A stretch of DNA of 35,473 nt from Bacteroidota bacterium. GTDB lineage: Bacteria; Bacteroidota; Bacteroidia; Bacteroidales; JAADGE01. How positions within the stretch are numbered: position 1 is the stretch's first letter; every line of letters starts with the position of its first letter. Below are positions 14,401-34,160 of this stretch, one piece after another. The stretch lies in contig JAJRUH010000010.1 of assembly GCA_024277895.1 (NCBI GenBank), forward strand, positions 1-35,473, given 5' to 3'. The position numbers and the translations under genes were made by a program. The notes under the pieces were generated by a model, which worked only from the letters and a program-made list of their open reading frames with translations, was not told where the DNA came from and made no database searches.

Positions 14401-15883
14401 TTGCAAATTGTACCGTCCATTTGTATATATTATCGTTTAGTCCGATATTAGTAACATTTGTATTGTTCAGTAATGAGTTTGAGAAAGTTCCGCTTCCCGA
14501 AACAATTGACCAAGAACCTGTTCCTACGGCAGGATTAACGGCTGCCAGAGTTGTTTCGCCGTTGCAAGTTTCCTTGTCGGGTCCTGCATTTGCCGCAGAA
14601 GGTGTATTTCTTGTTACGGTAACATAATCGGTATGAACGCAAGTTCCGTGTGTTATTTTCCACTCAAAAGTGTTATCACCGGTAATAAGATTTGAAACTG
14701 TTGTATTTGGTTGAGAAGCATCTGCAAAAGTTCCGCTTCCTCCGGTAACCCTCCATTCTCCTGTTCCGGGGGAAGGGTTGTTTGCATTAAGTGTGTAGCT
14801 GTCCGTACAGGTTTCTCCGTCTGCTCCGGCATCAGCCGTGAAATAATCGTAAGTTATATCTACGATGTCGGCAGAGGTGCATCCGTTTTTTTCAATTTTC
14901 CATTCATATTGATTTAATCCCGGATTTATTGAATTTACTTGAGTATTATAAGCATTTGCGTCAGCGAAAGTTCCGTTTCCGGAAACTACAGACCAAGTGC
15001 CTGTTCCGTTTGTAGGATTGTTTCCGGCAAGGGAAGTGTAATTTTCGCAAATTATTCGGTCGGTACCGGCATCGGCGGTTGTAGGTTTATTGCTTGTAAT
15101 AATGACATTTGCATAATCGCTGCAGTTTCCTCTTACGACAGTCCATTGCAGAGAATTTGTATTTGCTCCGAGTTGTCTTATTGTAGTATTGTATGCACTG
15201 CTGTTGTCAAAGACCGGATTGCCGGATGAAGCAATAATAGTCCAAGTTCCTGTTCCGGGTGCGGGGTTGTTTGCCGTAAGGTTTGCAAAATCTTCACAGG
15301 TCGTTTGATCTGTTCCCGCATCGGCGGTTACGATGTTGTTTGTTAGTGTCAATATGTCTTCCGAATGGCAAATGCCTTTGCTTATTTTCCATTCAAATTT
15401 ATTAATTCCGGAAGCTAATCCTGTTACGTTTGTTGCATTTGTCGTAGGATTTGCAATAGTTCCGCTTCCCGAAATCAAAGACCACAAACCTGTTTCTCCG
15501 TTTCCGTAAACATTTGCGTTAAGAGTATAATCGTTTTGACATATTTCTTCATCGGAGGCAGTGTATGCTTGTGTGGGATAGTTATTTGTGATAATTACTG
15601 CATCGTCATAAGTATTTGTTCCGTCTGTAATTGTCCATTTCAATTCGTTAAAACCTTCAAGGACATTTGTAATTGCCGTATTATATAAGGTTTCTTCGGT
15701 AATTGTACAAGTTCCGCTTATTATTGTCCATTTTCCTGTGTATCCCGACGGAGGCGAGTCGGCGGATAAGATAGTGTGGTCGGTACAAATTTCTTGGTCT
15801 GTTCCGGCATTTGTTTGAGAAAATACTATTTGATTAATCAGAAAAAATATAATTCCGAAGGAAAAGATATATTTGAAATTCAT
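11432..15883 (-). CDS. Giant secreted protein with 17 tandem about-80-residue repeats and T9SS sorting domain
   Basis: A 1483-residue surface protein: signal peptide (about 1-23, VFSQ), 17 repeats, then a T9SS domain starting near NNFSVFPNPTNG. Each repeat follows the order ADAGxDQxxC, LxxNxP, GtGxWxvxsGsGtf, NTxVtnL, GxNxFxWti, GCsdxDxVtItNN, which predicts a beta-sandwich of PKD/Ig type with one disulfide from the two Cys. Repeat 1 (GTNTYDD) and repeat 14 (INGAVAYDE) lack the second Cys; repeats 13 and 17 lack the first. The repeats have diverged too far to be recent duplications. No catalytic domain is seen, so adhesion or matrix function is likely, by inference only. Confidence 0.9.
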   Translation of the reverse strand: MNFKYIFSFGIIFFLINQIVFSQTNAGTDQEICTDHTILSADSPPSGYTGKWTIISGTCTITEETLYNTAITNVLEGFNELKWTITDGTNTYDDAVIITNNYPTQAYTASDEEICQNDYTLNANVYGNGETGLWSLISGSGTIANPTTNATNVTGLASGINKFEWKISKGICHSEDILTLTNNIVTADAGTDQTTCEDFANLTANNPAPGTGTWTIIASSGNPVFDNSSAYNTTIRQLGANTNSLQWTVVRGNCSDYANVIITSNKPTTADAGTDRIICENYTSLAGNNPTNGTGTWSVVSGNGTFADANAYNTQVNSINPGLNQYEWKIEKNGCTSADIVDITYDYFTADAGADGETCTDSYTLNANNPSPGTGEWRVTGGSGTFADASQPNTTVSNLITGDNTFEWKITHGTCVHTDYVTVTRNTPSAANAGPDKETCNGETTLAAVNPAVGTGSWSIVSGSGTFSNSLLNNTNVTNIGLNDNIYKWTVQFATCSNYDEVTITNNFVSANAGPDQIVCGTTSSLNANQPQTGEYGIWEVIAGSSNITNSNLYNSEVTGLVSGLNKFRWTISKGSCSDYDDIEITNNKYEASASVSGTSDICDDFASILGNTPPSGGYGYWSVISGNGTFDNSLDISTVVRNLATGTNIIRWTLNKNGCEDYEEFPINRNSVFADAGADQNVCVNYSVLNGNQPTGNLTGEWTRTSGSGNITNPSQYNTEVTGLTAGINTFKWTISGNGCTDSDEMQVVNNGFITSAGSDDIICTSYTSLTAADPSPGYGYWQVISGNGIFSNPSDFNTDVTGIPNLSSNIYRWTAFKNGCSDFDDVTITNNSITADAGSDFSVCTSSATLSGNNPSPGTGVWTIQVGGGQLTDENSPSSEITNLSLNDNIISWTVTNNTCINYDEVTITNNTVTATAGGDQAICYDHTFLSGQEPLNGGTGLWEIILGNGNFADNTLYNTEVTNLASGLNTFRWTIFNNGCNSGGDEVTINNKSFEADAGEDQTLPQFVTSTNLAAFLPSGGTGNWQILSGGGDVANASDPSSAVTNLISGINQFQWTVIYNGCSDYDVVSITAVDFQPNAGTDKTICSDSLKLNAQDMGGTPQYWSVEEGSGDFDDINDPATWVRNISEGINRYRWTVKINGAVAYDEIEITRINAFAGSDQNICENHTILNGNIPLGSTGAEWALVTGSATIVNPTAYNSEVVNINGGSNLFLWTVHAPNCYSEDYVNINYESISANAGNDQALCESTTSLNGNNPSTGTNGIWSVVSGTGIFENPSIYNTDVSNISIGNNIFKWTIFTTHCSVFDEVNILNDSISADAGDDQTVTHPYTYLNAVLPANSSGVWNINSGTGTFADENQPDTYVDNLTEGDNTFIWTVNNANCSDADNVTITYNFVENIADIENNFSVFPNPTNGILNIKISKPENQTIQIADITGKILIEKKTVNSKQTNFDLKSFSDGIYFIKIFNNKKTGVIKIVKK

Positions 15884-19938: not shown

Positions 19939-19946
19939 TACCTTTG
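19939..19946 (+). promoter_or_regulatory. Candidate -7 element (TACCTTTG) for the ygfK-like gene
   Basis: TACCTTTG matches TAnnTTTG and lies 27 bp upstream of the chosen ATG at 19974, inside the 86-bp divergent interval. It supports the later start, because the longer frame would begin within the promoter element. No -33 TTG at normal spacing. Confidence 0.45.
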
Positions 19947-19973
19947 TTGCCCTTTTTATGTAAATTTATACCT

Positions 19974-22541
19974 ATGACAGATAAATTCACACCCGCACCC
20001 TTAAAAAAGTTACTTCAAATTATTATTAATGAATACGATACAAAAAAAAGTATTTTAGGAATTTATGAAGAACAGTTTTTTAGACCCGGCAAAAATGATA
20101 AATTTCGTTCACATCGTTTCGGGAAACTTCTCGAAACTCCGATAGGCGTTGCCGCGGGACCTCATACACAACTTTCTCAAAATATTATTGCCGCTTGGCT
20201 TACCGGTGCAAGATACATAGAACTTAAAACCGTCCAAACTCTCGACGAACTCGAAGTGTCGAAGCCGTGCATTGATATGCAGGACGAAGGATACAATTGC
20301 GAGTGGTCGCAAGAGCTTAAAATACATCAATCTTTTGACGAATACCTGAACGCTTGGATTTTAATTCATATTTTGAAAGATAAACTGAATATCGGAACGC
20401 ACGAAGAACCCGGTTTTATTTTCAATATGAGTGCCGGATACGATTTAGCAGGAATTATGAAAAAAAACGTGCAATGGTTTTTTGATAAAATGACAAATGC
20501 TTCCGCAGAATTGAAACAAAAAGTCGAAGATATAAAAGATATTTACCCGAATGTAGTTAATCTGAATATAAATCCGGAAATTACCGACAATATTACACTT
20601 TCTACAATGCACGGTTGTCCTCCGGATGAAATTGAGCAAATTGCCCAGTATCTTATTACCGAAAGAAAATTACATACAACAATAAAACTTAATCCCACGC
20701 TTCTCGGAAAAGATAATTTAAGAGAAATTATTAAAAATTCCGGATTTAACACGGAAGTCCCGGACGAAGCATTCGAACACGACGTAAAATACGGCGATGC
20801 ACTCGGTTTTATAAAAAGACTTACCGAAAAAGCAAAAGAAAATAATGTGTTTTTCGGATTGAAACTTACAAACACTCTCGAAAGCATTAACAACAAAGAT
20901 ATTTTTCCCGAAAAAGAGAAAATGATGTATGCAAGCGGAAAAGTATTACATCCTATTTCGATAAATGTTGCCCGTATGCTGCAAAACGATTTCGGAGGCA
21001 GTTTAGATATTTCATTTTCAGGCGGTGCCGATGCTTTTAATATTACGGATATAGTAAATTGCGGATTGTATCCGGTTACCGTAAGTTCAGACTTGCTTAA
21101 ACCCGGCGGTTACGGCAGACTTCAGCAATACATTGATAATCTGATAGGTAAAAATATTTCTGTTTCAAAAGAAAGCAAACTTATAACTTTAAACGACTAT
21201 GCCGACAAGGTAAAAACAGACAAACGCTACAAAAAAGAAGGTCCGCACGACCCGAGTATTAAAACTTTCAGGAAACTGGAAAAATTTGATTGTTCTTATG
21301 CACCCTGCGAAGATACCTGCCCTACGAATCAGGGCATTCCGTCGTATATGTATTACACGGCAAAAGGCGATTTTGAAAAAGCTTATGAAGTAATTACCGA
21401 AACAAATCCTTTTCCGAATGCTACAGGAATGGTTTGCGACCATACCTGCCAATCAAAATGCACACGCATAAACTACGATAATCCGTTGAGAATAAGAGAT
21501 ATAAAGCGTTTTGTAACCGAACTGCACAATAAAAATCTTAATCCCGAAGCCTGTGTTGCCGACACTTTCAGAAATGAAAATAAAAAGCAATTAAAAGTTG
21601 CTGTAATAGGTGCGGGACCTTCGGGGCTTTCGGCGGCATATTTTTTAAATAAAGCCGGTTTTGAAGTCGAAATTTTTGAAGCAAAAGAAAAAGCCGGAGG
21701 TATGGTATCGGCTGCAATTCCTAAATTTCGTCTCGGAGACAATGCCGTTGATATCGACATAAACAATATTGAAGAAGAAGGAGTAAAAGTTTATTTCGGA
21801 CATAAAGTCAATAAAGAAAAATTTGAAGAATTAAGAAAAAAATCGGATTATATATACATTGGTGTCGGAGCTCAAAATGCCGTTTCGTTTATGATTGAAG
21901 GCGATGATACCGAAGGGTTGCTCGACCCTCTTGAATTTCTGTATGAGGCAAAAGCCGGAAAAATTACGAAATTCGGCAAAAACGTCGTAATCATAGGAGG
22001 CGGAAATACGGCAATGGATGCTGCAAGAACGGCATATCGCCTTGTCGGCAAAAACGGAAAAGTTACCGTACTTTATCGCAGAACAATTCAACAAATGCCT
22101 GCCGAATATCAGGAAATTAAAGATGTTTTGGCAGAAGGTATTGAAATTAAAGAGCTTGTAAATCCGGTAAAAATAAATTCGGAAAACGGAAAAATAATAT
22201 CGCTTACCTGCCGAAGAATGAAACTCGGAGAAAAAGACGCAAGCGGAAGGGCAAGACCCGTTGAAATTCCCGATTCCGATTTTGAATTTGAAACAGACAC
22301 CGTAATTCCGGCAATAGGTCAGCAACTTGCGGTTGATTTTGCAGACAAAAAACTTCTGAAAACAGAAGAAAGCAAATACGAAACAAAAATAGCGAACGTA
22401 TTTATCGGCGGCGATGCAAAACGAAATGCGTCAACACTTATAAAAGCAATAGGCGACGGCAGAAAAGCCGCACAGGAAATCATTAATAAAGCCGGTATTG
22501 ATTTTAATACGAAAACAAATTCTTTTGCAGACAGAAAATAA
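19974..22541 (+). CDS. ygfK: YgfK-like flavoprotein oxidoreductase, main part (split gene)
   Basis: An 855-residue protein. Residues 1-400 form the YgfK-specific N-terminal TIM-barrel-like region with TMHGCPPDEIEQIA (211-224), a hallmark of the family. Residues 438-500 have six Cys (440, 445, 449, 488, 492, 496) as in the iron-sulfur domain of the glutamate synthase small subunit. FAD and NAD(P) sites follow: GAGPSGL (546-552) and GGGNTA (675-680), closing with IGGDAKRNASTL. The family is annotated as putative selenate reductase and is linked to selenium-dependent molybdenum hydroxylases; the true reaction is unproven. TAA at 22539 is followed in the same frame by the next gene, which carries the ferredoxin tail normally fused to YgfK. 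Confidence 0.85.
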   Translation: MTDKFTPAPLKKLLQIIINEYDTKKSILGIYEEQFFRPGKNDKFRSHRFGKLLETPIGVAAGPHTQLSQNIIAAWLTGARYIELKTVQTLDELEVSKPCIDMQDEGYNCEWSQELKIHQSFDEYLNAWILIHILKDKLNIGTHEEPGFIFNMSAGYDLAGIMKKNVQWFFDKMTNASAELKQKVEDIKDIYPNVVNLNINPEITDNITLSTMHGCPPDEIEQIAQYLITERKLHTTIKLNPTLLGKDNLREIIKNSGFNTEVPDEAFEHDVKYGDALGFIKRLTEKAKENNVFFGLKLTNTLESINNKDIFPEKEKMMYASGKVLHPISINVARMLQNDFGGSLDISFSGGADAFNITDIVNCGLYPVTVSSDLLKPGGYGRLQQYIDNLIGKNISVSKESKLITLNDYADKVKTDKRYKKEGPHDPSIKTFRKLEKFDCSYAPCEDTCPTNQGIPSYMYYTAKGDFEKAYEVITETNPFPNATGMVCDHTCQSKCTRINYDNPLRIRDIKRFVTELHNKNLNPEACVADTFRNENKKQLKVAVIGAGPSGLSAAYFLNKAGFEVEIFEAKEKAGGMVSAAIPKFRLGDNAVDIDINNIEEEGVKVYFGHKVNKEKFEELRKKSDYIYIGVGAQNAVSFMIEGDDTEGLLDPLEFLYEAKAGKITKFGKNVVIIGGGNTAMDAARTAYRLVGKNGKVTVLYRRTIQQMPAEYQEIKDVLAEGIEIKELVNPVKINSENGKIISLTCRRMKLGEKDASGRARPVEIPDSDFEFETDTVIPAIGQQLAVDFADKKLLKTEESKYETKIANVFIGGDAKRNASTLIKAIGDGRKAAQEIINKAGIDFNTKTNSFADRK

Positions 22542-22559
22542 CATTCCGTTAAAGAATTG

Positions 22560-23213
22560 ATGCTGAAAAAAACAAAACGTATTCCCGGCATTCCCGTTAA
22601 GGAAATTGATTTAAACGACCGCAAAAACTTTAAACTCGTAACGGCAACAATGACTTCGGAAGAAGCCGTTGCGGAAGCATCACGCTGTTTGCTTTGCGAT
22701 GAAGTTTGTAATGTATGCACAACGCTTTGCCCGAATCTTGCTTTGCAACACTATGAGGTTGAGTCGATTAAATTTAAACTGCAAAAAATAGAAAACGGAA
22801 AAATCGTTGATGACGATATATTTGAAATAACACAAAAAGAGCAAATAATACATATTGCCGATTGGTGTAATATGTGTGCAAATTGCGAAACTTTTTGCCC
22901 TTCTTCCGGTGCACCGTATAAAGAAAAACCGCATTTATATTTAAATAAAACTACCTTTGCAGCCGAAAAAGACGGATATTATTACGACAACAAAAATCAA
23001 ACATTGCTGGCAAAAGAAAGCGGCTTTGATTTCAGCTTAACGGAAAAGGATAATTTTTATCTGTATCAGTCGGATAATCTTATCGCAAAATTAGATAAAA
23101 AAACTTTTGAAATAACAGATTATACCGGTGCCGAAAATGAAGATTATGATTTAAAAAAAGCCGCCGAAATGAGCATAATTTTAAAAGGAGCTGAAAAAAT
23201 TACCGGAAATTAA
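22560..23213 (+). CDS. Ferredoxin-type C-terminal part of the YgfK-like protein (separate ORF)
   Basis: A 217-residue iron-sulfur protein. Cysteines 43, 46, 50, 53 and 57 (CLLCDEVCNVCTTLCP) and 103, 106, 109 and 113 (CNMCANCETFCP) can hold two [4Fe-4S] clusters. The preceding text EEAVAEASRCLLCD is the usual start of the C-terminal ferredoxin part of one-piece YgfK proteins. It is in the same frame as the upstream gene, with only TAA and six codons between the two ORFs, so a single nonsense codon or a natural split explains the layout. The start used is ATG at 22560. If translated, it should dock on the flavoprotein to relay electrons. Confidence 0.8.
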   Translation: MLKKTKRIPGIPVKEIDLNDRKNFKLVTATMTSEEAVAEASRCLLCDEVCNVCTTLCPNLALQHYEVESIKFKLQKIENGKIVDDDIFEITQKEQIIHIADWCNMCANCETFCPSSGAPYKEKPHLYLNKTTFAAEKDGYYYDNKNQTLLAKESGFDFSLTEKDNFYLYQSDNLIAKLDKKTFEITDYTGAENEDYDLKKAAEMSIILKGAEKITGN

Positions 23214-23244: not shown

Positions 23245-24735
23245 ATGATAAAATTAATTGAAAAAGTAACAAACGAAAAAGCATTGGAAAATGCTGTTGA
23301 AAGGTATCGCAAACACGGAATTATTCTTCCTACATTTGCCCAACAAAAAAATCCGGAATTAATTCCCGAAAAAATTAAAAATGAATTAAAAAATATCGGA
23401 TTATGGGATTTTAATCCCTTAAATTTATTCAGAATAACTTGGAAAAACGAACCAAAAGAATTCGGAGGATTGTTCGGAAAACCGAATTACATCGAACTTC
23501 CGACGGAAATTACCGGAGTTGATGCTCGTATTGTTTTATTGGTGGGGAAATATTTTCCTACCGGAGCACATAAAGTAGGTGCCGCATACGGCTGCCTTGC
23601 CCCGAGAATTACTACCGGCGAGTTTGACCCGTCTTTCCATAAAGCTGTTTGGCCGTCAACGGGAAACTATTGTCGAGGCGGTGCTTTCGACAGTAAACTT
23701 ATGGATACCGAAGCCATTGCCATTCTTCCCGAAGAAATGAGCCGAGAACGTTTTGATTGGCTCAAAAACGAAGCACAAGCAACCGTTATTGCAACTCCCG
23801 GAAGTGAATCTAACGTAAAAGAAATTTACGACAAATGCTGGGAACTTCGCAGAACGCGTGATGATGTCGTTATTTTTAACCAATTTGACGAATTCGGAAA
23901 TTCCGTTTGGCACTACAATATTACCGGAAATGCGATAGAAGAAGTTTATAACTTACTGAAAACCGAAAAAAGCAACCTTTCAGCTTATGTTTCGGCAACC
24001 GGTTCGGCAGGAACAATTGCAGCCGGCGATTATTTAAAAACATTGACTCCGAATATGAAAATTGTAGCTTCGGAAGCTTTGCAATGTCCTACTATTTTAC
24101 GCAACGGTTTCGGGGCTCACCGTATTGAAGGCATAGGCGACAAGCATATTCCGTGGATACACAATACCAAAAATACCGATGTAGTTACCGCAATCGACGA
24201 TGAAGACCCGATGCGATTATTACGCCTTTTTAACGAACCCGAAGGACATAAATATTTAAAATCGCAAGGCGTATCGCAAGAAATTATCGACGAACTTCCT
24301 CTGCTCGGAATTTCTAGTATAGGAAACCTGCTTTCGGCAATAAAAACCGCAAAATATTTTGAAATGACTTCCGACGATATAATCGTTACCGTTGCCACCG
24401 ACAGCTCCGATATGTATAAATCCAGAATTAAAGAACTGGAAGAAGAAAGAGGAAAATACAACGAATTACAAGCGGCAAAAGACTTCGAGAAATGTATTTT
24501 CGGACAACAAACCGACAATATGAAAGAACTCGGTTATCAAGACAGAAAAGCCGTTCATAATTTGAAATATTATACTTGGATTGAGCAACAAGCAAAAGAT
24601 TCCGAAGATTTAAGTCAACTATGGTACGACAGAGATATTTGGAATAAAATTTTCAATCAAGTTCATCGTTGGGACGAATTAATTAACGAATTCAACGAAA
24701 GAACCGGAGTTCTGAAAAAATATTTAAATTCTTGA
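23245..24735 (+). CDS. PLP-dependent enzyme, fold type II (tryptophan synthase beta/cysteine synthase superfamily)
   Basis: A 496-residue cytoplasmic enzyme. The PLP lysine is probably K110 in PTGAHKVGAAYG; the phosphate-binding loop is SATGSAGTIAAGDYL (250-264). It is about 100 residues longer than YgeX (diaminopropionate ammonia-lyase) and about 150-200 longer than a cysteine synthase, and lacks the zinc ribbon of the second PLP enzyme in this window. Likely chemistry is beta-elimination or replacement on an amino acid, but the substrate is not identifiable. It starts 31 bp after the YgfK ferredoxin ORF and is probably in the same operon, which suggests that the YgfK complex and this enzyme act in one amino-acid or selenium/sulfur-linked pathway. 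Confidence 0.8.
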   Translation: MIKLIEKVTNEKALENAVERYRKHGIILPTFAQQKNPELIPEKIKNELKNIGLWDFNPLNLFRITWKNEPKEFGGLFGKPNYIELPTEITGVDARIVLLVGKYFPTGAHKVGAAYGCLAPRITTGEFDPSFHKAVWPSTGNYCRGGAFDSKLMDTEAIAILPEEMSRERFDWLKNEAQATVIATPGSESNVKEIYDKCWELRRTRDDVVIFNQFDEFGNSVWHYNITGNAIEEVYNLLKTEKSNLSAYVSATGSAGTIAAGDYLKTLTPNMKIVASEALQCPTILRNGFGAHRIEGIGDKHIPWIHNTKNTDVVTAIDDEDPMRLLRLFNEPEGHKYLKSQGVSQEIIDELPLLGISSIGNLLSAIKTAKYFEMTSDDIIVTVATDSSDMYKSRIKELEEERGKYNELQAAKDFEKCIFGQQTDNMKELGYQDRKAVHNLKYYTWIEQQAKDSEDLSQLWYDRDIWNKIFNQVHRWDELINEFNERTGVLKKYLNS

Positions 24736-24940: not shown

Positions 24941-25471
24941 TTAAAACAATTCTTGTTGCCCGTCTTTCAAATAACCTTCCAATTTCAGTAACTTATCTTT
25001 TGTTTTTAAACCGCCTGCATAACCGACTAAATCACCGGAATTTCCTATTATTCTGTGACAAGGAACAATAATAGATATTGCATTAGCCCCTGTTGCGGAA
25101 GCAACTGCGCGAACCGCTTTTTCATTATTCATAATTTTTGAAAGTCCTGAATAGCTTTCTGTTTTTCCGTAAGGAATTTTCAGAAGTGCATTCCAAACCT
25201 TTTTTTGAAAATCTGTTCCGGCAAACAGGAGAGGAATGGTAAATTCTTTTCGTTTTCTTTTAAAATATTCATTAAGCTGCAACTTTGTTTGCTTTGTAAT
25301 ATCCGTTTCTTCTTCAATATATTCTCCGTTTAATTCATATTGAATTCTTGAATCAATTGCTGATCGCATTTTTCGGTAAAACCAGTCAGCCAAACAAAGT
25401 CTGTCGTTTAAAGAACCGAGAATTAATTCGCCGTAAGGTGTTTTAAAATATTGAATACTTATTTGATGCAT
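24941..25471 (-). CDS. ogt: Methylated-DNA--protein-cysteine methyltransferase
   Basis: A 176-residue suicide DNA-repair protein that takes methyl groups from O6-methylguanine (and O4-methylthymine) onto its own cysteine. The active-site motif is IIVPCHRIIG, preceded by the helix-turn-helix region (KIPYGKTESYSGLS, AVRAVASATGANAI) and followed by GYAGGLKTKDKLLKLEG. It has the Ogt length and no Ada N-terminal zinc domain. It is a single gene on the minus strand between two plus-strand operons, convergent with the ygfK operon and divergent from the glycyl radical enzyme genes. The start is ATG at 25471. Confidence 0.93.
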   Translation of the reverse strand: MHQISIQYFKTPYGELILGSLNDRLCLADWFYRKMRSAIDSRIQYELNGEYIEEETDITKQTKLQLNEYFKRKRKEFTIPLLFAGTDFQKKVWNALLKIPYGKTESYSGLSKIMNNEKAVRAVASATGANAISIIVPCHRIIGNSGDLVGYAGGLKTKDKLLKLEGYLKDGQQELF

Positions 25472-25524: not shown

Positions 25525-25555
25525 ATTGCTTATAATGTTAAATAATTGTAAATTT
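25525..25555 (+). promoter_or_regulatory. Candidate promoter for the hydroxyproline dehydratase operon
   Basis: TTG at 25525-25527, a 20-bp spacer, then TAAATTTG at 25548-25555. This fits the Bacteroidota pattern (TTG, 19-21 bp, TAnnTTTG) better than any other site in the window. Transcription would start near 25562, leaving a leader of about 140 nt that contains the palindrome at 25605-25626. Confidence 0.6.
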
Positions 25556-25604
25556 GCAGACGTTAATGAAATCAGTATTCCTGCATATTAATCTTTGTTC
25601 ATAT

Positions 25605-25626
25605 ACTTATAAAGGCCTTTATGAGT
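25605..25626. promoter_or_regulatory. 22-bp palindrome in the leader of the glycyl radical operon
   Basis: ACTTATAAAGG joined directly to CCTTTATGAGT: two 11-bp arms with a single mismatch and no spacer. It lies about 45 bp downstream of the predicted transcription start and 76 bp upstream of the activase start. The gap-free symmetry suits a dimeric regulator better than an RNA hairpin. Confidence 0.4.
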
Positions 25627-25701
25627 GTTTGATGTTCTATAACTTTTCCTGAATCTTATCCTTTTTTTCCTTTTTAATCAAGTTTACTGTTTCAATTTTT
25701 T

Positions 25702-26499
25702 GTGAAAGCTGTTATTTTCAATATAAAGCGATTTGCCGTACACGACGGTCCCGGTGTTCGTACCACAATATTTTTTAAAGGTTGTCCTTTGAATTGTAAA
25801 TGGTGTCATAATCCGGAAAGCAAGAATATTGATATTGAAAAAACTGATAAATACTATAAAATTCGTGATATTGAAACAATAAAAACAAAACAAATAGGAA
25901 AATTTTATCAAGTAAAGGAATTGGTAAATGAAGTTAAGAAAGATATTGTAATTATGGAAGAATCCGCCGGAGGGGTTACATTTTCAGGAGGAGAACCTTT
26001 GATGCAATTCGATTTCTTAAAAGAAATTTTGATACAAATGAAAGAGACAGGACTTCATACTGCGGTTGATACAAGCGGGTATGTTTCCGAAAAAAAAATC
26101 AATGAAATAATTCCTTATACCGACTTGTTTTTGTATGATTTAAAACATTACAATAATGAGAAACATATTGAAAACACCGGTGTTTCATTATTGCCGATTC
26201 TGAAAAATTTAAAATATATCTTAAATTTAAAAAAGAATGTTTGGATAAGAATTCCGATTATTCCGGAAATAAATAATTCAGAAGAAGATATATATGGTTT
26301 TATTAAAACACTGGATAAATTACCTGAAAAACCGGAGCAAATAAATTTGCTGCCTTATCATAATATTGCCGATAATAAGTTTAAACGTTTGAAAATTGAA
26401 AACAAAATGAAAAATATACCCGGTTTAGACAAAAAAACAATAATACCGTTTAAGTTAATGCTTGAACAAGCCGGTTTTAAAGTCAAAATCGGAGGATAA
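25702..26499 (+). CDS. Glycyl radical enzyme activase (radical SAM), HypD-activating type
   Basis: A 265-residue radical SAM protein. C28, C32 and C35 (GCPLNCKWCHNP) bind the [4Fe-4S] cluster used to cleave S-adenosylmethionine; GGEP at 97-100 contacts SAM. The opening KAVIFNIKRFAVHDGPGVRTTIFFKG is typical of activases. These are its only three cysteines, so it lacks the ferredoxin-like insert with extra clusters found in many activases and resembles pyruvate formate-lyase activase. It should install the glycyl radical on the HypD-like enzyme encoded 115 bp downstream. The start is GTG: no ATG lies between the upstream in-frame stop and this codon. Confidence 0.9.
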   Translation: MKAVIFNIKRFAVHDGPGVRTTIFFKGCPLNCKWCHNPESKNIDIEKTDKYYKIRDIETIKTKQIGKFYQVKELVNEVKKDIVIMEESAGGVTFSGGEPLMQFDFLKEILIQMKETGLHTAVDTSGYVSEKKINEIIPYTDLFLYDLKHYNNEKHIENTGVSLLPILKNLKYILNLKKNVWIRIPIIPEINNSEEDIYGFIKTLDKLPEKPEQINLLPYHNIADNKFKRLKIENKMKNIPGLDKKTIIPFKLMLEQAGFKVKIGG

Positions 26500-26614
26500 G
26501 AAAAGCCTGTAATGTTATTATAGTGTGTAATTGTTTATTCGGTATTTAAAAATAGTTATCAGGTTAAAAGTTTAATTTTTTCAAAAATTAGAAGCGAACA
26601 AAAAAAATATCAAA

Positions 26615-28975
26615 ATGAACAACAGAATAAAAAAATTAAGAGAAGAAAGCTTAAAAGCCGTTAACAGAATTTCATCTGAACGCGCATTGTTGGTTACCGA
26701 ATTCTATAAAAGTAATGAATCGCAACAGCTTTCAATACCGATGAAACGAGCAAAGGCATTTGAATATATATTAAAACATAAACAAATATGTTATAATGAA
26801 GGCGAATTAATAGTAGGTGAACGAGGTCCGGAGCCGAAAGCAACACCTACTTACCCTGAAATTAATATACATTCAATAAAAGACCTTGAAATATTGAATT
26901 CGCGAAAGAAAGTTTCTTTTAAATCAGATGAAAAAACTTTTAAAGATTTTAAAAATATAATAATCCCTTTTTGGAAAGGAAAATCAAACAGAGAAAAAGT
27001 AATGAATAATATGTCGGCAGAGTGGTTAAATGCTTATGATGCCGGTGTATTTACCGAATTTCAAGAACAAAGAGCTCCCGGGCATACAGTTGCCGGCAAT
27101 AAGATTTATCAAAAAGGAATGCTTGATTTTATCAATGAGATTAATGAAAGTATTAAAAATTTAGATTTTATTAATGACTCACAAGCATTTGATAAAAGAG
27201 AGCAATTATCTGCCATGAAAGTTTCTGCATATGCTCTGATAATGTGGGCTGAAAGATATGCAATTTATTTGGAGAGTCTGGCAATAAAAGAAAATGACAT
27301 ATCAAGAAAATCCGAATTAGAAAATCTTGCAGGAATTTGCCGTAAAGTTCCTGCAAATGCACCTGAAACATTTCATGAAGCCATACAACATTATTGGTTT
27401 ATTCATCTGGGAGTAGTTACAGAGCTGAACCCATGGGATTCTTTTAATCCCGGACGTTTAGATCAACATTTATATCCTTTTTATAAAAAAGAAACAGAAA
27501 ACGGAAGTTTAACAAAAGAAAAAGCCGTTGAACTTTTGCAGTCGTTTTGGATTAAGTTTAATAATCATCCGGCACCGCCCAAAGTAGGAATTACGGCATT
27601 AGAAAGCAACACATATACAGATTTCAGCTTGATAAATGTAGGCGGAATAAAAGAAGACGGTTCAGACGCATCAAATGAAATGACATATATTATTTTGGAT
27701 GTTATTGAAGAAATGCGTCTTTTACAACCGAGTTCTATGGTGCAATTGTCTAAAAAAAATCCGAACAAATTAATTGACAGAGCTGTTAAAATTATAAAAA
27801 CAGGATACGGACAACCGTCAATATTTAATACTGATGCAATTATTCAAGAATTATTATTTCAGGGAAAAGATATTATTGATGCGCGCAACGGAGGTGCCAG
27901 CGGTTGTATTGAAACCGGAGCATTCGGAAAAGAAGCATATTTCTTAACAGGTTACTTCAATTTTTCAAAAATATTGGAATTGACGTTAAACAACGGTTTT
28001 GATCACAGAACAAACAAACAAGTCGGATTAAAAACAGGAAATGCAAATAATTTTACTTCTTATGATGAACTTTTAGCTGCATACAAAAAGCAATTAGAAT
28101 ATTTTATTGATATTAAGATAAAAGGAAATAACGTTATTGAGCGGATATTTTCAAATAATTTGCCTGTTCCTTTTCTGTCATTAATAATTGATGATTGCAT
28201 TACAAACGGAAAAGATTATAATTCCGGCGGTGCAAAATATAATACTTCTTATATTCAAGGAGTAGGAACGGGGACAGTAACAGACGGCTTGTCTGCAATA
28301 AAACATCATATTTTTGAACAAAATAATTTCAGTATGAAAGAATTACTTACAGCATTAAGTAAAGATTTTATCGGATATGATGATATTCATTTTAAGTTAA
28401 TTTATGAATCTCCCAAATACGGAAATGATGACGACAGAGCTGATGCTGTTTTAGATGATGTTTTCCGAATTTTTTATAATGCCGTAAACGGAAAACCCAA
28501 CACGAGGAGAGGTGTGCATCGAATAAACCTTTTACCCACAACCTCTCATATTTATTTCGGTATGGTATGCGGTGCTTTGCCGGATGGTAAAAAAGCAGGA
28601 AAACCGGTTTCGGAAGGAATTTCTCCTGTTCAGGGAGCTGATAAAAACGGTCCTTCTGCCGTAATCCGTTCGGCATCAAAAATTGATCATTTGAGAACGG
28701 GCGGAACTTTACTGAATCAAAAATTTACACCCGATTTCTTTGAAGATGATGAAGCAATTAAAAAAGTATCGGCATTAGTAAGAGCTTATTTCAGAGCAGA
28801 CGGGCATCATATTCAGTTTAATGTTGTGAGTGCAGACACTTTACGAAAAGCTAAAAAAAATCCTGAACAATATCGTGATTTAATTGTAAGAGTTGCCGGA
28901 TACAGTGATTATTTTAATGATTTGAGTGAAGAATTACAAGATGAAATTATCGGTAGAACTGAACAATTTAAGTAA
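26615..28975 (+). CDS. hypD: trans-4-hydroxy-L-proline dehydratase (glycyl radical enzyme)
   Basis: A 786-residue glycyl radical enzyme. The thiyl Cys is C431 in GASGCIETG with E433; the radical Gly is G762 in VRVAGYSDYF. From memory of Clostridioides difficile HypD, the substrate-contact residues recur at a constant offset of three: F149, H157 (QRAPGH), D275 (TELNPWDSF), S331, F337 and Y447. The stretches ELIVGERG, GVGTGTVTDGLSAIKH and LQDEIIGRTEQ are also HypD-like. The enzyme removes water from hydroxyproline to give 1-pyrroline-5-carboxylate, which P5C reductase turns into proline; no reductase gene is in the window. The activase is upstream and a prolyl peptidase downstream. Oxygen would inactivate it. 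Confidence 0.88.
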   Translation: MNNRIKKLREESLKAVNRISSERALLVTEFYKSNESQQLSIPMKRAKAFEYILKHKQICYNEGELIVGERGPEPKATPTYPEINIHSIKDLEILNSRKKVSFKSDEKTFKDFKNIIIPFWKGKSNREKVMNNMSAEWLNAYDAGVFTEFQEQRAPGHTVAGNKIYQKGMLDFINEINESIKNLDFINDSQAFDKREQLSAMKVSAYALIMWAERYAIYLESLAIKENDISRKSELENLAGICRKVPANAPETFHEAIQHYWFIHLGVVTELNPWDSFNPGRLDQHLYPFYKKETENGSLTKEKAVELLQSFWIKFNNHPAPPKVGITALESNTYTDFSLINVGGIKEDGSDASNEMTYIILDVIEEMRLLQPSSMVQLSKKNPNKLIDRAVKIIKTGYGQPSIFNTDAIIQELLFQGKDIIDARNGGASGCIETGAFGKEAYFLTGYFNFSKILELTLNNGFDHRTNKQVGLKTGNANNFTSYDELLAAYKKQLEYFIDIKIKGNNVIERIFSNNLPVPFLSLIIDDCITNGKDYNSGGAKYNTSYIQGVGTGTVTDGLSAIKHHIFEQNNFSMKELLTALSKDFIGYDDIHFKLIYESPKYGNDDDRADAVLDDVFRIFYNAVNGKPNTRRGVHRINLLPTTSHIYFGMVCGALPDGKKAGKPVSEGISPVQGADKNGPSAVIRSASKIDHLRTGGTLLNQKFTPDFFEDDEAIKKVSALVRAYFRADGHHIQFNVVSADTLRKAKKNPEQYRDLIVRVAGYSDYFNDLSEELQDEIIGRTEQFK

Positions 28976-29004
28976 TACCTGCTGAAAACAGGTATTGCTT
29001 TTTG
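28974..29004 (+). terminator. Terminator between hypD and the S28 peptidase gene
   Basis: An 8-bp perfect stem AATACCTG/CAGGTATT (28974-28981, 28989-28996) with a 7-nt loop, then GCTTTTTGTT. The stem begins inside the hypD stop codon. It would end or attenuate the operon before the S28 gene at 29039. Confidence 0.7.
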
Positions 29005-29038
29005 TTAAATCTTTCTATTTTCTTTAAAAAACAAAACT

Positions 29039-30364
29039 ATGCAACAAAAATTTCTGATTAAGATTTATTTAATTTTTATATTTTTCTCGGCAACGTATGT
29101 AGGTTTCGGGCAAAGTGCTGATATAAAGTCTGATAAAACTGACCTTTACAAGCAATTAGAAAAAATTGCCGGCATTGACAGCATAATAAAATTGCCTGTA
29201 TCAAATCAATTTTCCGAAAAATATGAGATATATTATAAACAACTTTTAGATGCCGGTGATTCAACTGCCGGTTATTATAATGAGAGGATATTTTTGTCTC
29301 ATAAAGATTATACAAAACCTATGATTTTTGTAACGGAAGGTTATACGGCAAATTATGCACAAAATGAATATTATTCAAATGAATTGACAACTATATTAAA
29401 CGGAAACCAAATTGTAGCGGAACACAGATATTTCGGGAAATCAAAACCTGACAGCTTGGATTGGAAATATTTGACAGTTGAAAATGCAGCACACGATCAT
29501 CATCAATTAATATCTGCTTTTAAGAATATTTATACGGGAAAATGGCTGACGACCGGAATTTCAAAAGGCGGTCAAACTGCATTAATTCACATGAGTTTGT
29601 ATCCCGAAGATGTTGATTTTTCAGTTCCTTATGTTGCACCCTTAAATTTCGGAATTGAAGATGGAAGGCACGAACCTTTTATCGACAATATTTCCGGTAA
29701 AAAAGAACGAAAAAAAGTACGGAATTTTCAATTATTGCTGTTAAATAAACGTGATTCTTTATTTCCGATATTTGAAAATTATTGTAAGAAAAAAAATTAT
29801 ACTTTCAGATTACCGGTTCAAGAAATTTATGATTATTGTGTGCTTGAATATTCCTTTGCATTTTGGCAATGGGGGAACAAAATTTCTTCAATACCTGATA
29901 AAAATGCTTCGTTAAATAAAATATTCAATCATTTTATTTCGGTTTCTTCACCTTCTTATTTTGCCGTTGAAGAAATAGAACCGACAAAAGCTTTTTTTGT
30001 TCAGGCATATAAGCAAATGGGATATTACGGATATGACATAAAGCCTTTTAAAGGGCTTCTGAAAATAAATGATGCAAATAATTATTTGCAAAAAATATTT
30101 TTACCCGAAAGTGCAAAAGATATTGAATACGATAAAGAAGCAATGTTGAAAGTTCAAAATTATTTGAATAAAAATGATTCGAAAATGATTTTTTTATACG
30201 GGGAATTTGACCCGTGGTCGGCAACAGCTGTTGAATTCGGCAAAAAAGAAAATATGTATAAAATTATTAAGAAAGGAGGCAGCCACTTGACAAGAATTAA
30301 TAATTTACCGAATAAACAAAAAAATAAAGTTATAAATATAATTAATAATTGGCTGAAAGAATAG
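29039..30364 (+). CDS. Exported S28-family prolyl peptidase (PS-10 type)
   Basis: A 441-residue alpha/beta hydrolase with a signal peptide (about 1-25, VGFGQ). The nucleophile is S175 in TGISKGGQTA; the S28 hallmark EHRYFGKSKP is at 129-137; the probable Asp is D391 (GEFDPWSA) and the His H416 (GGSHLTRI). S28 enzymes release short peptides or residues after proline, as in prolyl tri- or dipeptidyl peptidases. Standing 63 bp downstream of hypD, it could supply proline- or hydroxyproline-containing fragments. A terminator lies between the two genes, so expression may be separate or attenuated. The leader ACAAAACT before the ATG is typical of the phylum. Confidence 0.85.
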   Translation: MQQKFLIKIYLIFIFFSATYVGFGQSADIKSDKTDLYKQLEKIAGIDSIIKLPVSNQFSEKYEIYYKQLLDAGDSTAGYYNERIFLSHKDYTKPMIFVTEGYTANYAQNEYYSNELTTILNGNQIVAEHRYFGKSKPDSLDWKYLTVENAAHDHHQLISAFKNIYTGKWLTTGISKGGQTALIHMSLYPEDVDFSVPYVAPLNFGIEDGRHEPFIDNISGKKERKKVRNFQLLLLNKRDSLFPIFENYCKKKNYTFRLPVQEIYDYCVLEYSFAFWQWGNKISSIPDKNASLNKIFNHFISVSSPSYFAVEEIEPTKAFFVQAYKQMGYYGYDIKPFKGLLKINDANNYLQKIFLPESAKDIEYDKEAMLKVQNYLNKNDSKMIFLYGEFDPWSATAVEFGKKENMYKIIKKGGSHLTRINNLPNKQKNKVINIINNWLKE

Positions 30365-30415: not shown

Positions 30416-30563
30416 GCTGAAAAGCGAATATTTATTTGAAGAGTTCAGTCTAAAAAGGTTAAATATTTAAAAAGAACCCTGTCAGGGTTCGGAACCCTGA
30501 CAGGGTTTCAATTAGACAATTTATTGAAAATCATCTATATCAGCGTTTTTCAGCAAATCCTAA
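30416..30563. repeat. Repeat element A3, degenerate relative of the A family
   Basis: The right end, in reverse complement TTAGGATTTGCTGAAAAACG, matches the ends of A1 and A2. The left end is reduced to GCTGAAAAGCG (30416-30426). The conserved 70-bp block of A1 and A2 is absent; the interior holds the GC-rich palindrome at 30475-30507 instead. Confidence 0.45.
30475..30507. repeat. Perfect 33-bp inverted repeat
   Basis: AACCCTGTCAGGGTT, spacer CGG, AACCCTGACAGGGTT: the two 15-bp arms are exact reverse complements, and each arm is itself palindromic except for its centre base. It may act as a bidirectional terminator between the S28 gene and the threonine-synthase-like gene, or be an interspersed palindrome of the type common in Bacteroidetes. 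Confidence 0.8.
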
Positions 30564-30585: not shown

Positions 30586-31827
30586 ATGATTACAGAAAAA
30601 TTTATCTACAAATGTGTCGATTGCGGGAAGGAATATTCTGCAAACGATGTAATGTATCTTTGTCCGGCTTGTGCCGAAAAAAACACTCCGGATAAACCGC
30701 CGAAAGGTGTTTTGAAAGTTATTTACGATTATTCGGGAATTCTAAAAAGAGCATCTCAAAATGTTTTCGACAAACTGAAAGAAACAAAGTTTATTGATTT
30801 ACTTCCGATAAATAATGTAAAAAATCTGCCTGAATTGAGGGTAGGAGAGACACCTTTATATAAGCAAACTGAATTAAACGGAAAAAAATTATCTTTCAAT
30901 CTTTTTTTAAAAGATGATTCTCAAAATCCGACCTATTCTTTTAAAGACCGTGCTTCTTATTTGGTTTCCGCCTATGCAAAAGAAAACGGAATTGACACAA
31001 TCGTTGCGGCATCAACAGGAAATGCAGGTTCTTCGCTTGCCGGAATTTGTGCTTCGCAAAATCAAAAAGCGATAATTATGGTTCCGGAAGCTGCACCGTC
31101 GGCAAAATTGACGCAAATTGTAATGTACGGAGCCGTGATAATTCCCGTAAAAGGAACTTATGACGATGCTTTTGATTTAAGCATAAAAGCTACCGAAAAA
31201 TTCGGTTGGTATAACAGAAATACGGCTTTTAATCCGCTGACTATTGAAGGGAAAAAAACGGTTTCCTTTGAATTATTCGACCAATTAAATCAGACAATCC
31301 CCGACAGAATTTTTGTTCCCGTAGGCGACGGTGTGATAATTTCAGGAGTTTACAAAGGATTTGAAGATTTGCTTAAATTAGGAATTATAAATAAAATGCC
31401 GGTTATTGTTGCCGTTCAGTCGAAAGGCAGTGATAATCTTTCGCGAAATATTGATAATGAAGATTTTGAAATAAAGCCGAGTAAAACAATTGCCGATTCT
31501 ATTTCCGTAGATATTCCGCGAAACTTTTATATGGCAAAGCAATTTATTCAAAAATATGAAGGCGAATATTTAAGCGTTTCCGACGAAGAAATTTTATCCG
31601 CATCGAAAGAACTTTCAAAAAATACCGGACTTTTTGCCGAACCGGCTGCCGCAACGGCTTTTGCCGGACTTCTTAATTATATGAACAACAATAAAATTGA
31701 GAAAAATTCAAACAATGTCGTGCTTTTAACAGGCAGCGGACTTAAAGACCTGAAATCCGTGCAATCGGTTATTTCAATTCCGAAAGCCGTAGAGCCGGAT
31801 GTTGAGAATTTGGGAAAACTGCCGTAA
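30586..31827 (+). CDS. Threonine synthase-like PLP enzyme with N-terminal zinc ribbon
   Basis: A 413-residue fold-type II PLP enzyme. A zinc ribbon occupies residues 10-29 (C10, C13 in CVDCG; C26, C29 in CPAC). The PLP lysine is K120 in PTYSFKDRAS, followed by the ASTGNAGSS loop (142-150) and LTGSGLKD near the C-terminus. Threonine synthases (from O-phosphohomoserine) share this layout, particularly the class with an N-terminal zinc ribbon. Related enzymes act on other amino acids, and the window holds no hom or thrB beside it, so the assignment to ThrC is not secure. With the 496-residue PLP enzyme it forms a pair of amino-acid lyase/synthase genes around the hydroxyproline genes. Confidence 0.75.
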   Translation: MITEKFIYKCVDCGKEYSANDVMYLCPACAEKNTPDKPPKGVLKVIYDYSGILKRASQNVFDKLKETKFIDLLPINNVKNLPELRVGETPLYKQTELNGKKLSFNLFLKDDSQNPTYSFKDRASYLVSAYAKENGIDTIVAASTGNAGSSLAGICASQNQKAIIMVPEAAPSAKLTQIVMYGAVIIPVKGTYDDAFDLSIKATEKFGWYNRNTAFNPLTIEGKKTVSFELFDQLNQTIPDRIFVPVGDGVIISGVYKGFEDLLKLGIINKMPVIVAVQSKGSDNLSRNIDNEDFEIKPSKTIADSISVDIPRNFYMAKQFIQKYEGEYLSVSDEEILSASKELSKNTGLFAEPAAATAFAGLLNYMNNNKIEKNSNNVVLLTGSGLKDLKSVQSVISIPKAVEPDVENLGKLP

Positions 31828-31921: not shown

Positions 31922-33565
31922 TCAACTTGCACAACAACTCAATTTAGAAATGTCTTTTCCAAAAGTAATTGCTGCTAATTTTATTCCTTCTCCTAATGTT
32001 AGGTATGGATAAAAACTTTCTGCTAATTCTTTTACAGTTATTCCAAACTTAATTGCCATACTCAGTTGTTGTATTAATTCTCCGCCTTCCGGTGCAATAA
32101 TTCTTGCTCCGATAAGTTTATCGGTTTCCGTATTGCGAATTAACTTAATAAATCCTACGGTATCTTGTGCTGCCAATGCTCGCGGTACGTTAGTTAAATC
32201 TAATTTACTAACTTCAAAAGGTATTCCTGTTTTTTCTGCTTCAATTTCATCCATTCCTGCTCCTGCTATTTGTGGGTCAGTAAAAACAACCCAAGGTAAT
32301 GAAGAATAATTTATTGTCTTATTTTCTTCCGTAAAAGCATTGGTAATTGCAACATTTCCTTCTAATGCTGCCGTATAAACAAAAGATGGAGTATTAACTA
32401 CATCACCTGCTGCATATATATTCGGAATATTCGATTCCATTTTTTCATTAACAACAATATGCCCTCTTTCGGTCAGTTTTAAATCAAGATTTCCTAAACC
32501 TAATTTTGAAGTATTCGGTTTTATACCTGTTGCAACGACAATATGACCTTTTTCAATCAATTGAGTTGTTGAACCATCCGGACATTTACAATGGATAATA
32601 GTGTCAGAGCCTGTTTTCTCAATTTTAAAGGCTCTAAAATTTGGCAAAATTTCAATGCCTTCACTTCTGAATTGAGTTTCTAAAACATCTGTAATGTCTT
32701 TTGTTTGATTTCTTAAAGGTCGGTCAGTAAACTCAATAATTCTAATTTTTACACCCAAACGATTGTAGGCTTGTGCAATTTCTAAACCTATATATCCTGC
32801 TCCTAAAATGGTTAAACTCTCAGGTTTTTCTTCTAAGTCAAAAAGAGAAACATTGGTTAAATAACCTACTTCATTTAAGCCGTCAATTTGAGGTATATTT
32901 GTAGTTGCACCTGCTGCGATAATAAATTTCAAAGCAGTATAGGTGTCTTTTTCGTCAACAATAATAGTTTTTTTATTAATAAATTTTGCCCAACCTTTGA
33001 GCATTGTTAAGTTATTGAAGTCGCTTACAACATCCATATATTTTTGTTGTTGAAGCGAAGTAACTAATTGTTTTTTGTCTTTTATTAATTGCTTGAAATC
33101 AATTTCCGCCCCTAAAGTTTTAATACTTTTAAAATTTGAATAATTTGCGTGATATGCTGTTTCTGCTGCTCTTATTAGGTTTTTTGAAGGAACACAACCA
33201 ACATTTACACAAGTTCCGCCAAAATCTAAACCACCGTTAACCATTAATGTCGAAAGTCCTAAACTTTCGGCTTTTATAGCTGCTGAAAATGCAGCGGAAC
33301 CGCCTCCAATAATTATTAAATCAAAATGTTTATTTTTCCCATCGTCCGAACTACCGGTTACAACTTTATAATTCCCGATATTATTAACTGCACTTATAAT
33401 TTCATCCTTGTTTAATTTTTCTTCCTCAAAATTAAATATTCCAATTCCGGTTTCGTGGTTTACAGAACATTTTTTTATTCCCTCAATCTTGCTAATGTCT
33501 TTTTCTATATGAGAAGAACAACTACTACAAGTCATCCCTTTTATTTTCAATTCTAAAATTGTCAT
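31922..33565 (-). CDS. merA: Mercuric reductase with N-terminal HMA domain
   Basis: A 547-residue flavoprotein disulfide reductase that reduces Hg(II) to volatile Hg(0) with NADPH. An HMA metal-binding domain (1-68) has GMTCSSC with C13 and C16. FAD binding is at IIGGGSAAFSAA (85-96), the redox pair is C119/C124 in GGTCVNVGCVPSK, the NADPH site is ILGAGYIGLE, and the C-terminal Hg-binding vicinal pair is C544/C545 (SCCAS). YLTLGEGIKLAAITF is a MerA-specific tail. The start chosen at 33565 (MTILELKIKGMTC) leaves one base after the merTP stop; the longer reading frame overlaps merTP and is rejected. No merB is present. Confidence 0.93.
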   Translation of the reverse strand: MTILELKIKGMTCSSCSSHIEKDISKIEGIKKCSVNHETGIGIFNFEEEKLNKDEIISAVNNIGNYKVVTGSSDDGKNKHFDLIIIGGGSAAFSAAIKAESLGLSTLMVNGGLDFGGTCVNVGCVPSKNLIRAAETAYHANYSNFKSIKTLGAEIDFKQLIKDKKQLVTSLQQQKYMDVVSDFNNLTMLKGWAKFINKKTIIVDEKDTYTALKFIIAAGATTNIPQIDGLNEVGYLTNVSLFDLEEKPESLTILGAGYIGLEIAQAYNRLGVKIRIIEFTDRPLRNQTKDITDVLETQFRSEGIEILPNFRAFKIEKTGSDTIIHCKCPDGSTTQLIEKGHIVVATGIKPNTSKLGLGNLDLKLTERGHIVVNEKMESNIPNIYAAGDVVNTPSFVYTAALEGNVAITNAFTEENKTINYSSLPWVVFTDPQIAGAGMDEIEAEKTGIPFEVSKLDLTNVPRALAAQDTVGFIKLIRNTETDKLIGARIIAPEGGELIQQLSMAIKFGITVKELAESFYPYLTLGEGIKLAAITFGKDISKLSCCAS

Positions 33566-33566
33566 G

Positions 33567-34160
33567 TTACTGATTATTAACAGTTTTATAGCCTGTTGAG
33601 TTAATACTTTTTTTAATTTCTGTAAGATTTGTTTTTGTTTTATCAAATTCAATAACTGCGTTTGCATTTTGATAAGATGATGTCACCTTTATTATCCCGG
33701 GTAATTCATTTACAGCATGATTTATATGATTTTGACACGCATCACAAGTCATACCTTCAATTCCTACTTCAACCGTTTGTATGTTTGCTTTTTCCGTAAT
33801 AATTTCAGTTTGGTTGTTATTGGAATAAAATATACTGCTATAATACGGAAATGCAAGCATAACAACCGCAAAGCCGGTAACAAGTCCTAAGAATAATTTT
33901 GTTTGCATGAATTTAGGTTTTTCATCGACTTCGCAATCGCATTTTATTTCTTTTTTTGGTTTCAATTTTTGATACCATGCAAATGCTAATACTAAAATAG
34001 TAATTACTATTAAATAAGGGCGAAATGGTTCCGTCCAAGAAAACGTTGATGCAATACCTGATGTTCCTGAAATTAATGCTAAAATGGGAGTTATGCAACA
34101 TAAAGAAGATGCTATTGCTGTCAGTAGCCCCACACTTATTAGTTTTTTATCTTTTTGCAT
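33567..34160 (-). CDS. merTP: Mercuric ion transporter MerT-MerP fusion
   Basis: A 197-residue inner-membrane protein that brings Hg(II) to MerA. Three membrane segments (about 8-30, 48-64 and 88-110) include the MerT vicinal pair C21/C22 (LCCITP); a loop has C74 and C76 (CDC). The C-terminal HMA domain (about 128-195) with GMTCDAC (C139, C142) corresponds to MerP, here fused to the transporter instead of being a separate periplasmic protein. With the third segment crossing the membrane, the HMA domain should face the periplasm. Fused MerTP proteins are known in Bacteroidota. merA begins one base after the stop codon, so the two are coupled. Confidence 0.88.
   Translation of the reverse strand: MQKDKKLISVGLLTAIASSLCCITPILALISGTSGIASTFSWTEPFRPYLIVITILVLAFAWYQKLKPKKEIKCDCEVDEKPKFMQTKLFLGLVTGFAVVMLAFPYYSSIFYSNNNQTEIITEKANIQTVEVGIEGMTCDACQNHINHAVNELPGIIKVTSSYQNANAVIEFDKTKTNLTEIKKSINSTGYKTVNNQ

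Follow-up and report, generated by a model that had tools for sequence, protein, structure and literature searches.

An activase–hypD–S37 peptidase cassette in Bacteroidota that may serve the anaerobic use of hydroxyproline-containing peptides

We analyzed a 35,473-nucleotide stretch of DNA from an apparently uncultured, Bacteroidales-like member of the Bacteroidota (assembly GCA_024277895.1, contig JAJRUH010000010.1, here C168), which is referred to as the window and belongs to a genome of 3.19 Mb in 183 contigs with 95.7% completeness. Three intact open reading frames (ORFs) follow one another on its forward strand, separated by 115 and 63 bp, in the order activase, hypD and S37 peptidase:

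25702..26499, + strand: radical S-adenosylmethionine (SAM) activase of a glycyl radical enzyme, 265 aa, GTG start (TIGR02494 and NF043069 scores, cysteine content)
26615..28975, + strand: glycyl radical enzyme HypD (NF043068, PDB 6vxc, catalytic and substrate residues)
29039..30364, + strand: predicted exported serine peptidase of family S37 (PS-10 / prolyl tri/tetrapeptidyl aminopeptidase family), 441 aa (PF05576, AlphaFold2 model)

A preliminary description of this DNA had placed the start of the locus at 25525. The three forward-strand ORFs hold, but that start does not, since the upstream DNA contains no forward-strand ORF of at least 60 aa. The ORFs were called by a simple longest-ORF caller, so start positions are approximate and genes shorter than 90 aa are missed.

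The glycyl radical enzyme (GRE) scores 1248.3 bits against the HypD model NF043068, above the curated cut-off of 1100, and stays under the respective cut-off of each of the 11 other families that it matches. Its best PDB match is Clostridioides difficile HypD (6vxc, 1015 bits), followed by the next GRE at 527 bits, while HplG (7vua) reaches 383. In excerpts of the study of Backman et al., the residues mutated in C. difficile HypD are H160, D278, S334, D339, F340, C434, E436, Y450, T645 and G765 (PMC7077986). All ten are kept in the window protein at an offset of -3 (H157, D275, S331, D336, F337, C431, E433, Y447, T642 and G762), and all lie in invariant columns of a 20-sequence alignment of the window protein and 19 relatives. 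The preliminary description had called the enzyme HypD, with C431 and G762 as the catalytic pair and the substrate-contact residues at a constant offset, and each of these points is borne out. Together, profile, structure match and residues strongly support the assignment of the GRE as HypD, a trans-4-hydroxyproline dehydratase. It is the sole match to the PFL-like family across the window's genome, and the closest named record among the matches listed is Bacteroidales bacterium isolate bin10061 (L141), whose HypD is 90% identical.

The third gene had been assigned to family S28, an assignment that has to be replaced. Its product scores 166.6 bits against the S37 profile PF05576 (cut-off 27), with residues 35-438 aligned to positions 7-410 of the 448 in the profile, whereas the S28 profile PF05577 gives 46.3 bits over residues 79-204 and positions 13-150 of 434, short of a full domain. 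The profile scores thus rule out S28 membership, although the closest fold of known structure is that of S28. A search of the PDB with a profile built from 30 S37 proteins found five sequences, all of S28 prolyl peptidases, with E-values of 5e-15 to 3e-11. The AlphaFold2 model of the peptidase has a mean predicted local distance difference test (pLDDT) score of 93.6, and its ten best PDB matches are again all S28 prolyl peptidases (E 1.7e-13 to 2.1e-11; next match 9e-9). In a 30-row alignment, S175 and D391 never vary and H416 hardly does, which is the Ser-Asp-His pattern of S37; by analogy with alpha/beta hydrolases these residues form a putative catalytic triad.

The protein begins with a hydrophobic leader followed by Gly-Phe-Gly-Gln, with the Gln after the likely cleavage site. 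This arrangement fits the Q-rule of Bacteroidetes as described in excerpts of PMC5837995 and PMC10653852. By a rough pattern, 13 of 24 hypD-linked S37 proteins carry a Q-rule leader, 8 a lipoprotein leader and 3 neither, and the leader pattern points to export of the peptidase. According to the available parts of the sources, S37.001 cleaves after proline at 3/3 listed sites (PMC9147577), and the enzyme of Streptomyces mobaraensis acts as a prolyl tri/tetrapeptidyl aminopeptidase (PMC11878206). Thus, the S28 name falls, but the earlier idea of an exported peptidase from a proline-bond family survives, because S37 and S28 are both post-proline families. No characterized Bacteroidota member of S37 was found among the literature matches listed.

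To follow the cassette among related genomes we used its flanking genes, which are:

23245-24735: pyridoxal phosphate (PLP) enzyme gene, left of OGT
24941..25471, - strand: O6-methylguanine-DNA methyltransferase (OGT), left boundary, outside the cassette (in genome G305 it adjoins the right-flank gene, with no cassette between them)
30586..31827, + strand: threonine-synthase-like PLP enzyme, right boundary, probably outside the cassette (PF00291, 237.6 bits)

The window and G303, a genome of the same genus, share the order PLP gene, OGT, activase-hypD-S37 and threonine-synthase-like gene. In G305, OGT and the threonine-synthase-like gene lie ~207 bp apart and the cassette is absent. Nor does the cassette lie at this site in G288, G306, G307, G297, G304 and G298, where the two PLP genes are ~78-856 bp apart. 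The right-flank gene occurs in 17 of 21 family genomes, 15 of which lack a close hypD anywhere; the cassette is present in 2 of the 17, the flanking genes lie together without it in 7, and the 1.5-kb flanks examined in the remaining 8 contain no cassette gene and no left PLP gene. A close hypD occurs in 2/21 family genomes, and a third match, 34% identical, was taken as another GRE. Since seven genomes have the flank pair without the cassette, activase-hypD-S37 behaves as a unit, and the three genes come or go together. The site also holds another reverse-strand ORF (~150 aa) in G306 and the OGT gene in G305, so this spot seems to take up genes.

We then asked how widely hypD and S37 are paired. 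The order-wide sample comprised 295 genomes, of which 101 have HypD over the cut-off and 88 have S37. The window, 100 fetched regions and 80 named loci (the best 80 of at least 523 confirmed) gave 181 hypD loci, and removal of 7 identical HypD cores left 174. Order-sample genomes with partial HypD matches (G043, G046, G078, G199, plus some with shorter fragments) stayed outside the survey, including G043, where the partial hypD has an S37 gene after it. Among the 88 S37 genomes, 18 have a hypD-linked S37 and 59 have unlinked regions that were examined (G198 has one of each), while 12 were not examined (G043, G055, G059, G084, G086, G188, G210, G216, G248, G262, G272 and G290). Genes at contig ends, such as that of L229, count as unlinked.

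S37 is present in 59/101 hypD genomes versus 29/194 genomes without HypD over the cut-off. The same holds in a thinned set of 119 genomes with about one per family (23/39 hypD genomes versus 12/80 others). An activase lies beside hypD in 98 of 101 order-sample loci, and after it S37 is the top neighbour cluster, found within ~9 kb in 18 of 101 loci (next cluster, 12). All 18 S37 genes are on the hypD strand, 17 downstream and 1 upstream, and random placement would give ~0.26 adjacent cases by a crude calculation that assumes one genome size. Absence of the hypD–peptidase adjacency from all relatives had been named beforehand as a refutation; the adjacency was found in 24 of 174 distinct loci, with S37 as the peptidase and on the hypD strand in 24/24. 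Among the linked loci are L144, of Prolixibacter denitrificans DSM 27267, and L181, from a record with the title Chlorobiota bacterium. The pairing of hypD and S37 is thus more than chance. The open-licence literature matches listed, drawn from result lists that were in some cases far longer, include no paper that pairs hypD with S37 or with a prolyl peptidase.

The history of the link was read from two trees built by a quick method without bootstrap, in which gain and loss are indistinguishable. On the S37 tree (83 rows) there are at least 14 changes of the linked state, at least 8 of them forced by starred branches; the HypD tree (174 rows) shows at least 15, at least 12 of them so forced. 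The link between hypD and S37 has therefore repeatedly been made or broken. On both trees the linked label is more clustered than shuffled labels (0/500 as low), which indicates that the link is also partly inherited. A single ancestral operon that was merely inherited is not supported, because linked rows are scattered on both trees.

To compare the genes that accompany hypD, we defined a putative operon as genes on the hypD strand with gaps of at most 300 bp, which gave 369 genes (activases excluded) against 1390 other genes of the same loci. S37 accounts for 22 operon-like genes versus 2 others (22 versus 2 loci). M24 peptidases (aminopeptidase P) give 22 versus 6 genes (21 versus 6 loci), C69 dipeptidases 10 versus 1 (10 versus 1 loci), PF05544 11 versus 2 (10 versus 2 loci; the L171 gene is seen as two pieces) and LysO 10 versus 3 (5 versus 2 loci). 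The putative operon holds at least one of S37, M24, C69 and PF05544 in 44 of 174 loci. LysO lysine-exporter gene pairs recur in the hypD operons of L043, L047, L060, L085 and L098.

PF05544 may extend the substrate range in some relatives. Cys/Thr is the mark of trans-3-hydroxyproline dehydratase and Cys/Cys that of the epimerase. Three PF05544 proteins score best with trans-3-hydroxy-L-proline dehydratase, under its cut-off, and among 13 PF05544 ORFs the motif MCGH is found in 12 and DRSPTGTG in 6. Eight loci hold a gene of the ornithine-cyclodeaminase family, to which pyrroline-2-carboxylate (Pyr2C) reductases belong, and PF05544 is present in 7 of them, in some cases outside the operon. The 59 S37 regions away from hypD contain PF05544 in 4 cases and C69 in 3. 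A profile search of the window's own genome found no PF05544 match.

The activase belongs to a short form. It scores 271 bits against TIGR02494 (cut-off 174), and its best named equivalog, the HypD activase NF043069 (model length 299), gives 285 bits, below the cut-off of 425. The protein has three cysteines in all (28, 32 and 35), which make up the CxxxCxxC of the radical-SAM cluster, and lacks the ferredoxin-like CxxCxxCxxxC insert seen in activases of 300 aa. We read the longer NF043069 model as a family defined by this insert. Among 158 activases of at least 230 aa, the CxxCxxCxxxC motif is missing in 140/141 that lie upstream of hypD (median 265 aa), while 17/17 downstream of hypD carry one or two copies (median 302 aa). 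A large branch of HypD systems thus appears to work without auxiliary clusters in the activase, and the short activases provide a natural test of whether such clusters are needed for HypD activation.

The product of HypD would be pyrroline-5-carboxylate (P5C). With one ProC query, a homologue was detected close to hypD in a single locus of the 174, where it lies outside the operon. The preliminary description had reported no P5C reductase in the window, and the whole genome agrees: the ProC model TIGR00112 has no match there at E <= 0.001, while 14/14 control genomes have matches. Two of the 21 family genomes, G297 and G300, score above the TIGR00112 cut-off; within the genus only G300 does, and the other 13 of 14 genomes show no match (4) or a weak partial one (9), behind which may be a divergent P5C reductase. 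The absence of proC could be an assembly gap at 95.7% completeness, but the 13/14 genus genomes without a full match speak otherwise. The genome encodes a P5C dehydrogenase on another contig (TIGR01236, 766 bits; cut-off 613.6, passed by 0/14 controls) and a proline dehydrogenase (ProDH), also on another contig, in line with the earlier expectation that the pathway is finished elsewhere. Gene content therefore suggests a route from hydroxyproline (Hyp) through P5C to glutamate.

We then propose a model for the cassette. The activase would form the glycyl radical on G762 of HypD. The S37 peptidase, probably periplasmic as judged from its leader, may cut near the N-terminus of peptides after proline and probably Hyp and could, for instance, release Gly-X-Hyp tripeptides from fragments of collagen, as the properties of family S37 would allow. 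Small peptides would be imported and finished by other peptidases; the putative operons of relatives hold aminopeptidase P, C69 and sometimes dipeptidyl peptidase (DPP)-type genes. HypD, assigned by sequence, would dehydrate trans-4-hydroxy-L-proline to P5C, which the P5C dehydrogenase could oxidize to glutamate. We consider it likely that the three genes form a cassette that is acquired or lost as a whole and serves the anaerobic use of Hyp-containing peptides. This suggests that fragments of collagen-like proteins may nourish these bacteria under anoxic conditions, and we infer collagen as the Hyp source. It is possible, though we propose it only tentatively, that the window represents the smallest form, moved as one cassette, of an undescribed modular anaerobic collagen-peptide system in Bacteroidota. 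In such a system, an exported S37 hydroxyprolyl tripeptidyl peptidase would release Gly-X-Hyp units, assisted by aminopeptidase P and by peptidases of the C69 and DPP types. Two dehydratases would serve the two hydroxyprolines of collagen, the radical enzyme HypD for 4-Hyp and a PF05544 enzyme with a reductase for 3-Hyp, and a minimal activase would work without auxiliary iron-sulfur clusters.

Several observations weigh against this interpretation. Within the genus, hypD is found in 2/14 genomes. S37 accompanies a minority of loci with the activase upstream or unseen (24/157); 101 of these 157 have at least 5 kb downstream, many contigs ending early, and 20 of the 101 have S37. It was found in 0/17 loci of the other HypD group, in which the activase is downstream. 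The 59 examined S37 genes away from hypD indicate that S37 also serves elsewhere. Among operon companions, S37 was preset by the finding and the other families were picked for being frequent near hypD, so the contrast of the latter is inflated, and the Fisher tests take genes as independent. EamA (12 versus 10 genes and loci) and S9/DPPIV (7 versus 6 genes and loci) show a weak contrast and are not claimed as defining parts. The ROK regulator goes in the opposite direction (0/369 operon genes versus 11/1390; 0 versus 11 loci), which rules it out as part of the module. Of 83 further operon genes at positions +1/+2, 79 were scanned, and cytidylate-kinase-like is the top Pfam family among them (8 genes; best 25 of 113 families considered). 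The cassette itself contains no transporter.

An alternative view is that HypD and its activase use free Hyp from the medium, with S37 as a general exported proline peptidase in loose adjacency and no dedicated pathway. Most hypD loci lack S37 and many S37 genes lie away from hypD, as this view would predict, and excerpts of PMC9044972 describe growth of C. difficile on added hydroxyproline by way of hypD. However, loose adjacency does not readily account for the 18 adjacent cases, far above the crude random expectation, for the shared strand in every linked locus, for the presence or absence of the cassette as a unit in the family, or for the recurrence of other peptidase families in the same putative operons, and we regard this explanation as unlikely.

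The Hyp might also come from plant or algal hydroxyproline-rich protein, which is compatible with a peptide-using cassette in all but the source. Nothing in the window points to a Hyp source, and free trans-4-Hyp is all that HypD needs. 3-Hyp is typical of collagen, and the relatives' loci with PF05544 closest to trans-3-hydroxyproline dehydratase (3 tested, under the cut-off), together with the ornithine-cyclodeaminase-family gene that accompanies PF05544 in 7 of its 8 loci, favor an animal source; yet the window's genome has no PF05544 match. We consider a plant or algal origin rather unlikely. A GRE of another specificity, such as propanediol or glycerol dehydratase, choline lyase or an HplG-type enzyme, would belong to the same superfamily. 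These candidates are ruled out by the profile scores (NF043068 alone over its cut-off) and by the PDB scores, in which HypD leads the next solved GRE and HplG by a wide distance, and the ten residues are kept; we consider this reading highly improbable. A peptide-using HypD cassette remains our favored interpretation.

Other features lie in the window outside the cassette. Two near-identical palindromic 15-mers, 3 bp apart, occupy 30475-30507 in the spacer that follows the S37 gene. Consecutive forward-strand ORFs at 19944-22541 and 22557-23213 match successive parts of YgfK (TIGR03315) and look like one gene split or frameshifted, with a MocA-like gene and a PLP enzyme nearby. The reverse-strand region 31922-34160 holds a MerT-like gene and a gene for mercury(II) reductase MerA (507 bits, cut-off 454), whose N-terminus carries a heavy-metal domain. 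A subtilase (460-2250) and a large PKD protein (11432-15883), both on the reverse strand, each carry a C-terminal sorting domain of the Por secretion system.

Animal protein is rich in hydroxyproline, and HypD is widespread among anaerobes. The literature consulted says little about how anaerobes free Hyp from peptides, and the recurring hypD-S37 unit offers a concrete candidate enzyme; it also points to a function that S37 peptidases of Bacteroidota may have. The strain record of Prolixibacter denitrificans DSM 27267, with its hypD-S37 pair, opens a simple genetic test.

Among known systems, HypD has already been recorded in Bacteroides or Bacteroidaceae (excerpts of PMC11574389 and PMC7815924). 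In the clostridial arrangement, hypD stands beside proC (excerpts of PMC7077986 and PMC9044972). The window shares with the C. difficile HypD/activase/proC system the mutated residues, an activase directly upstream and the predicted conversion of trans-4-Hyp to P5C. It differs in having an exported S37 peptidase in place of proC, an activase without the ferredoxin-type insert and a likely sink in glutamate rather than proline. The collagen-utilization cluster of Colwellia also groups peptidases with hydroxyproline catabolism genes, but its route runs through 4-hydroxyproline epimerase and D-Hyp dehydrogenase, with an M9 collagenase, a major facilitator superfamily (MFS) transporter and a TonB receptor; a glycyl radical enzyme, S37 and S28 are not among the genes named in excerpts of that report (PMC7883544). 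With MEROPS family S37 (PS-10 and the S. mobaraensis enzyme), the window peptidase shares PF05576 over most of its length, the Ser-Asp-His pattern and an export leader, whereas the Bacteroidota form adjoins hypD and the specificity of the window enzyme is a prediction. Each kind of enzyme and its chemistry are thus known, and the gene organization, with its short activase, is a new variant.

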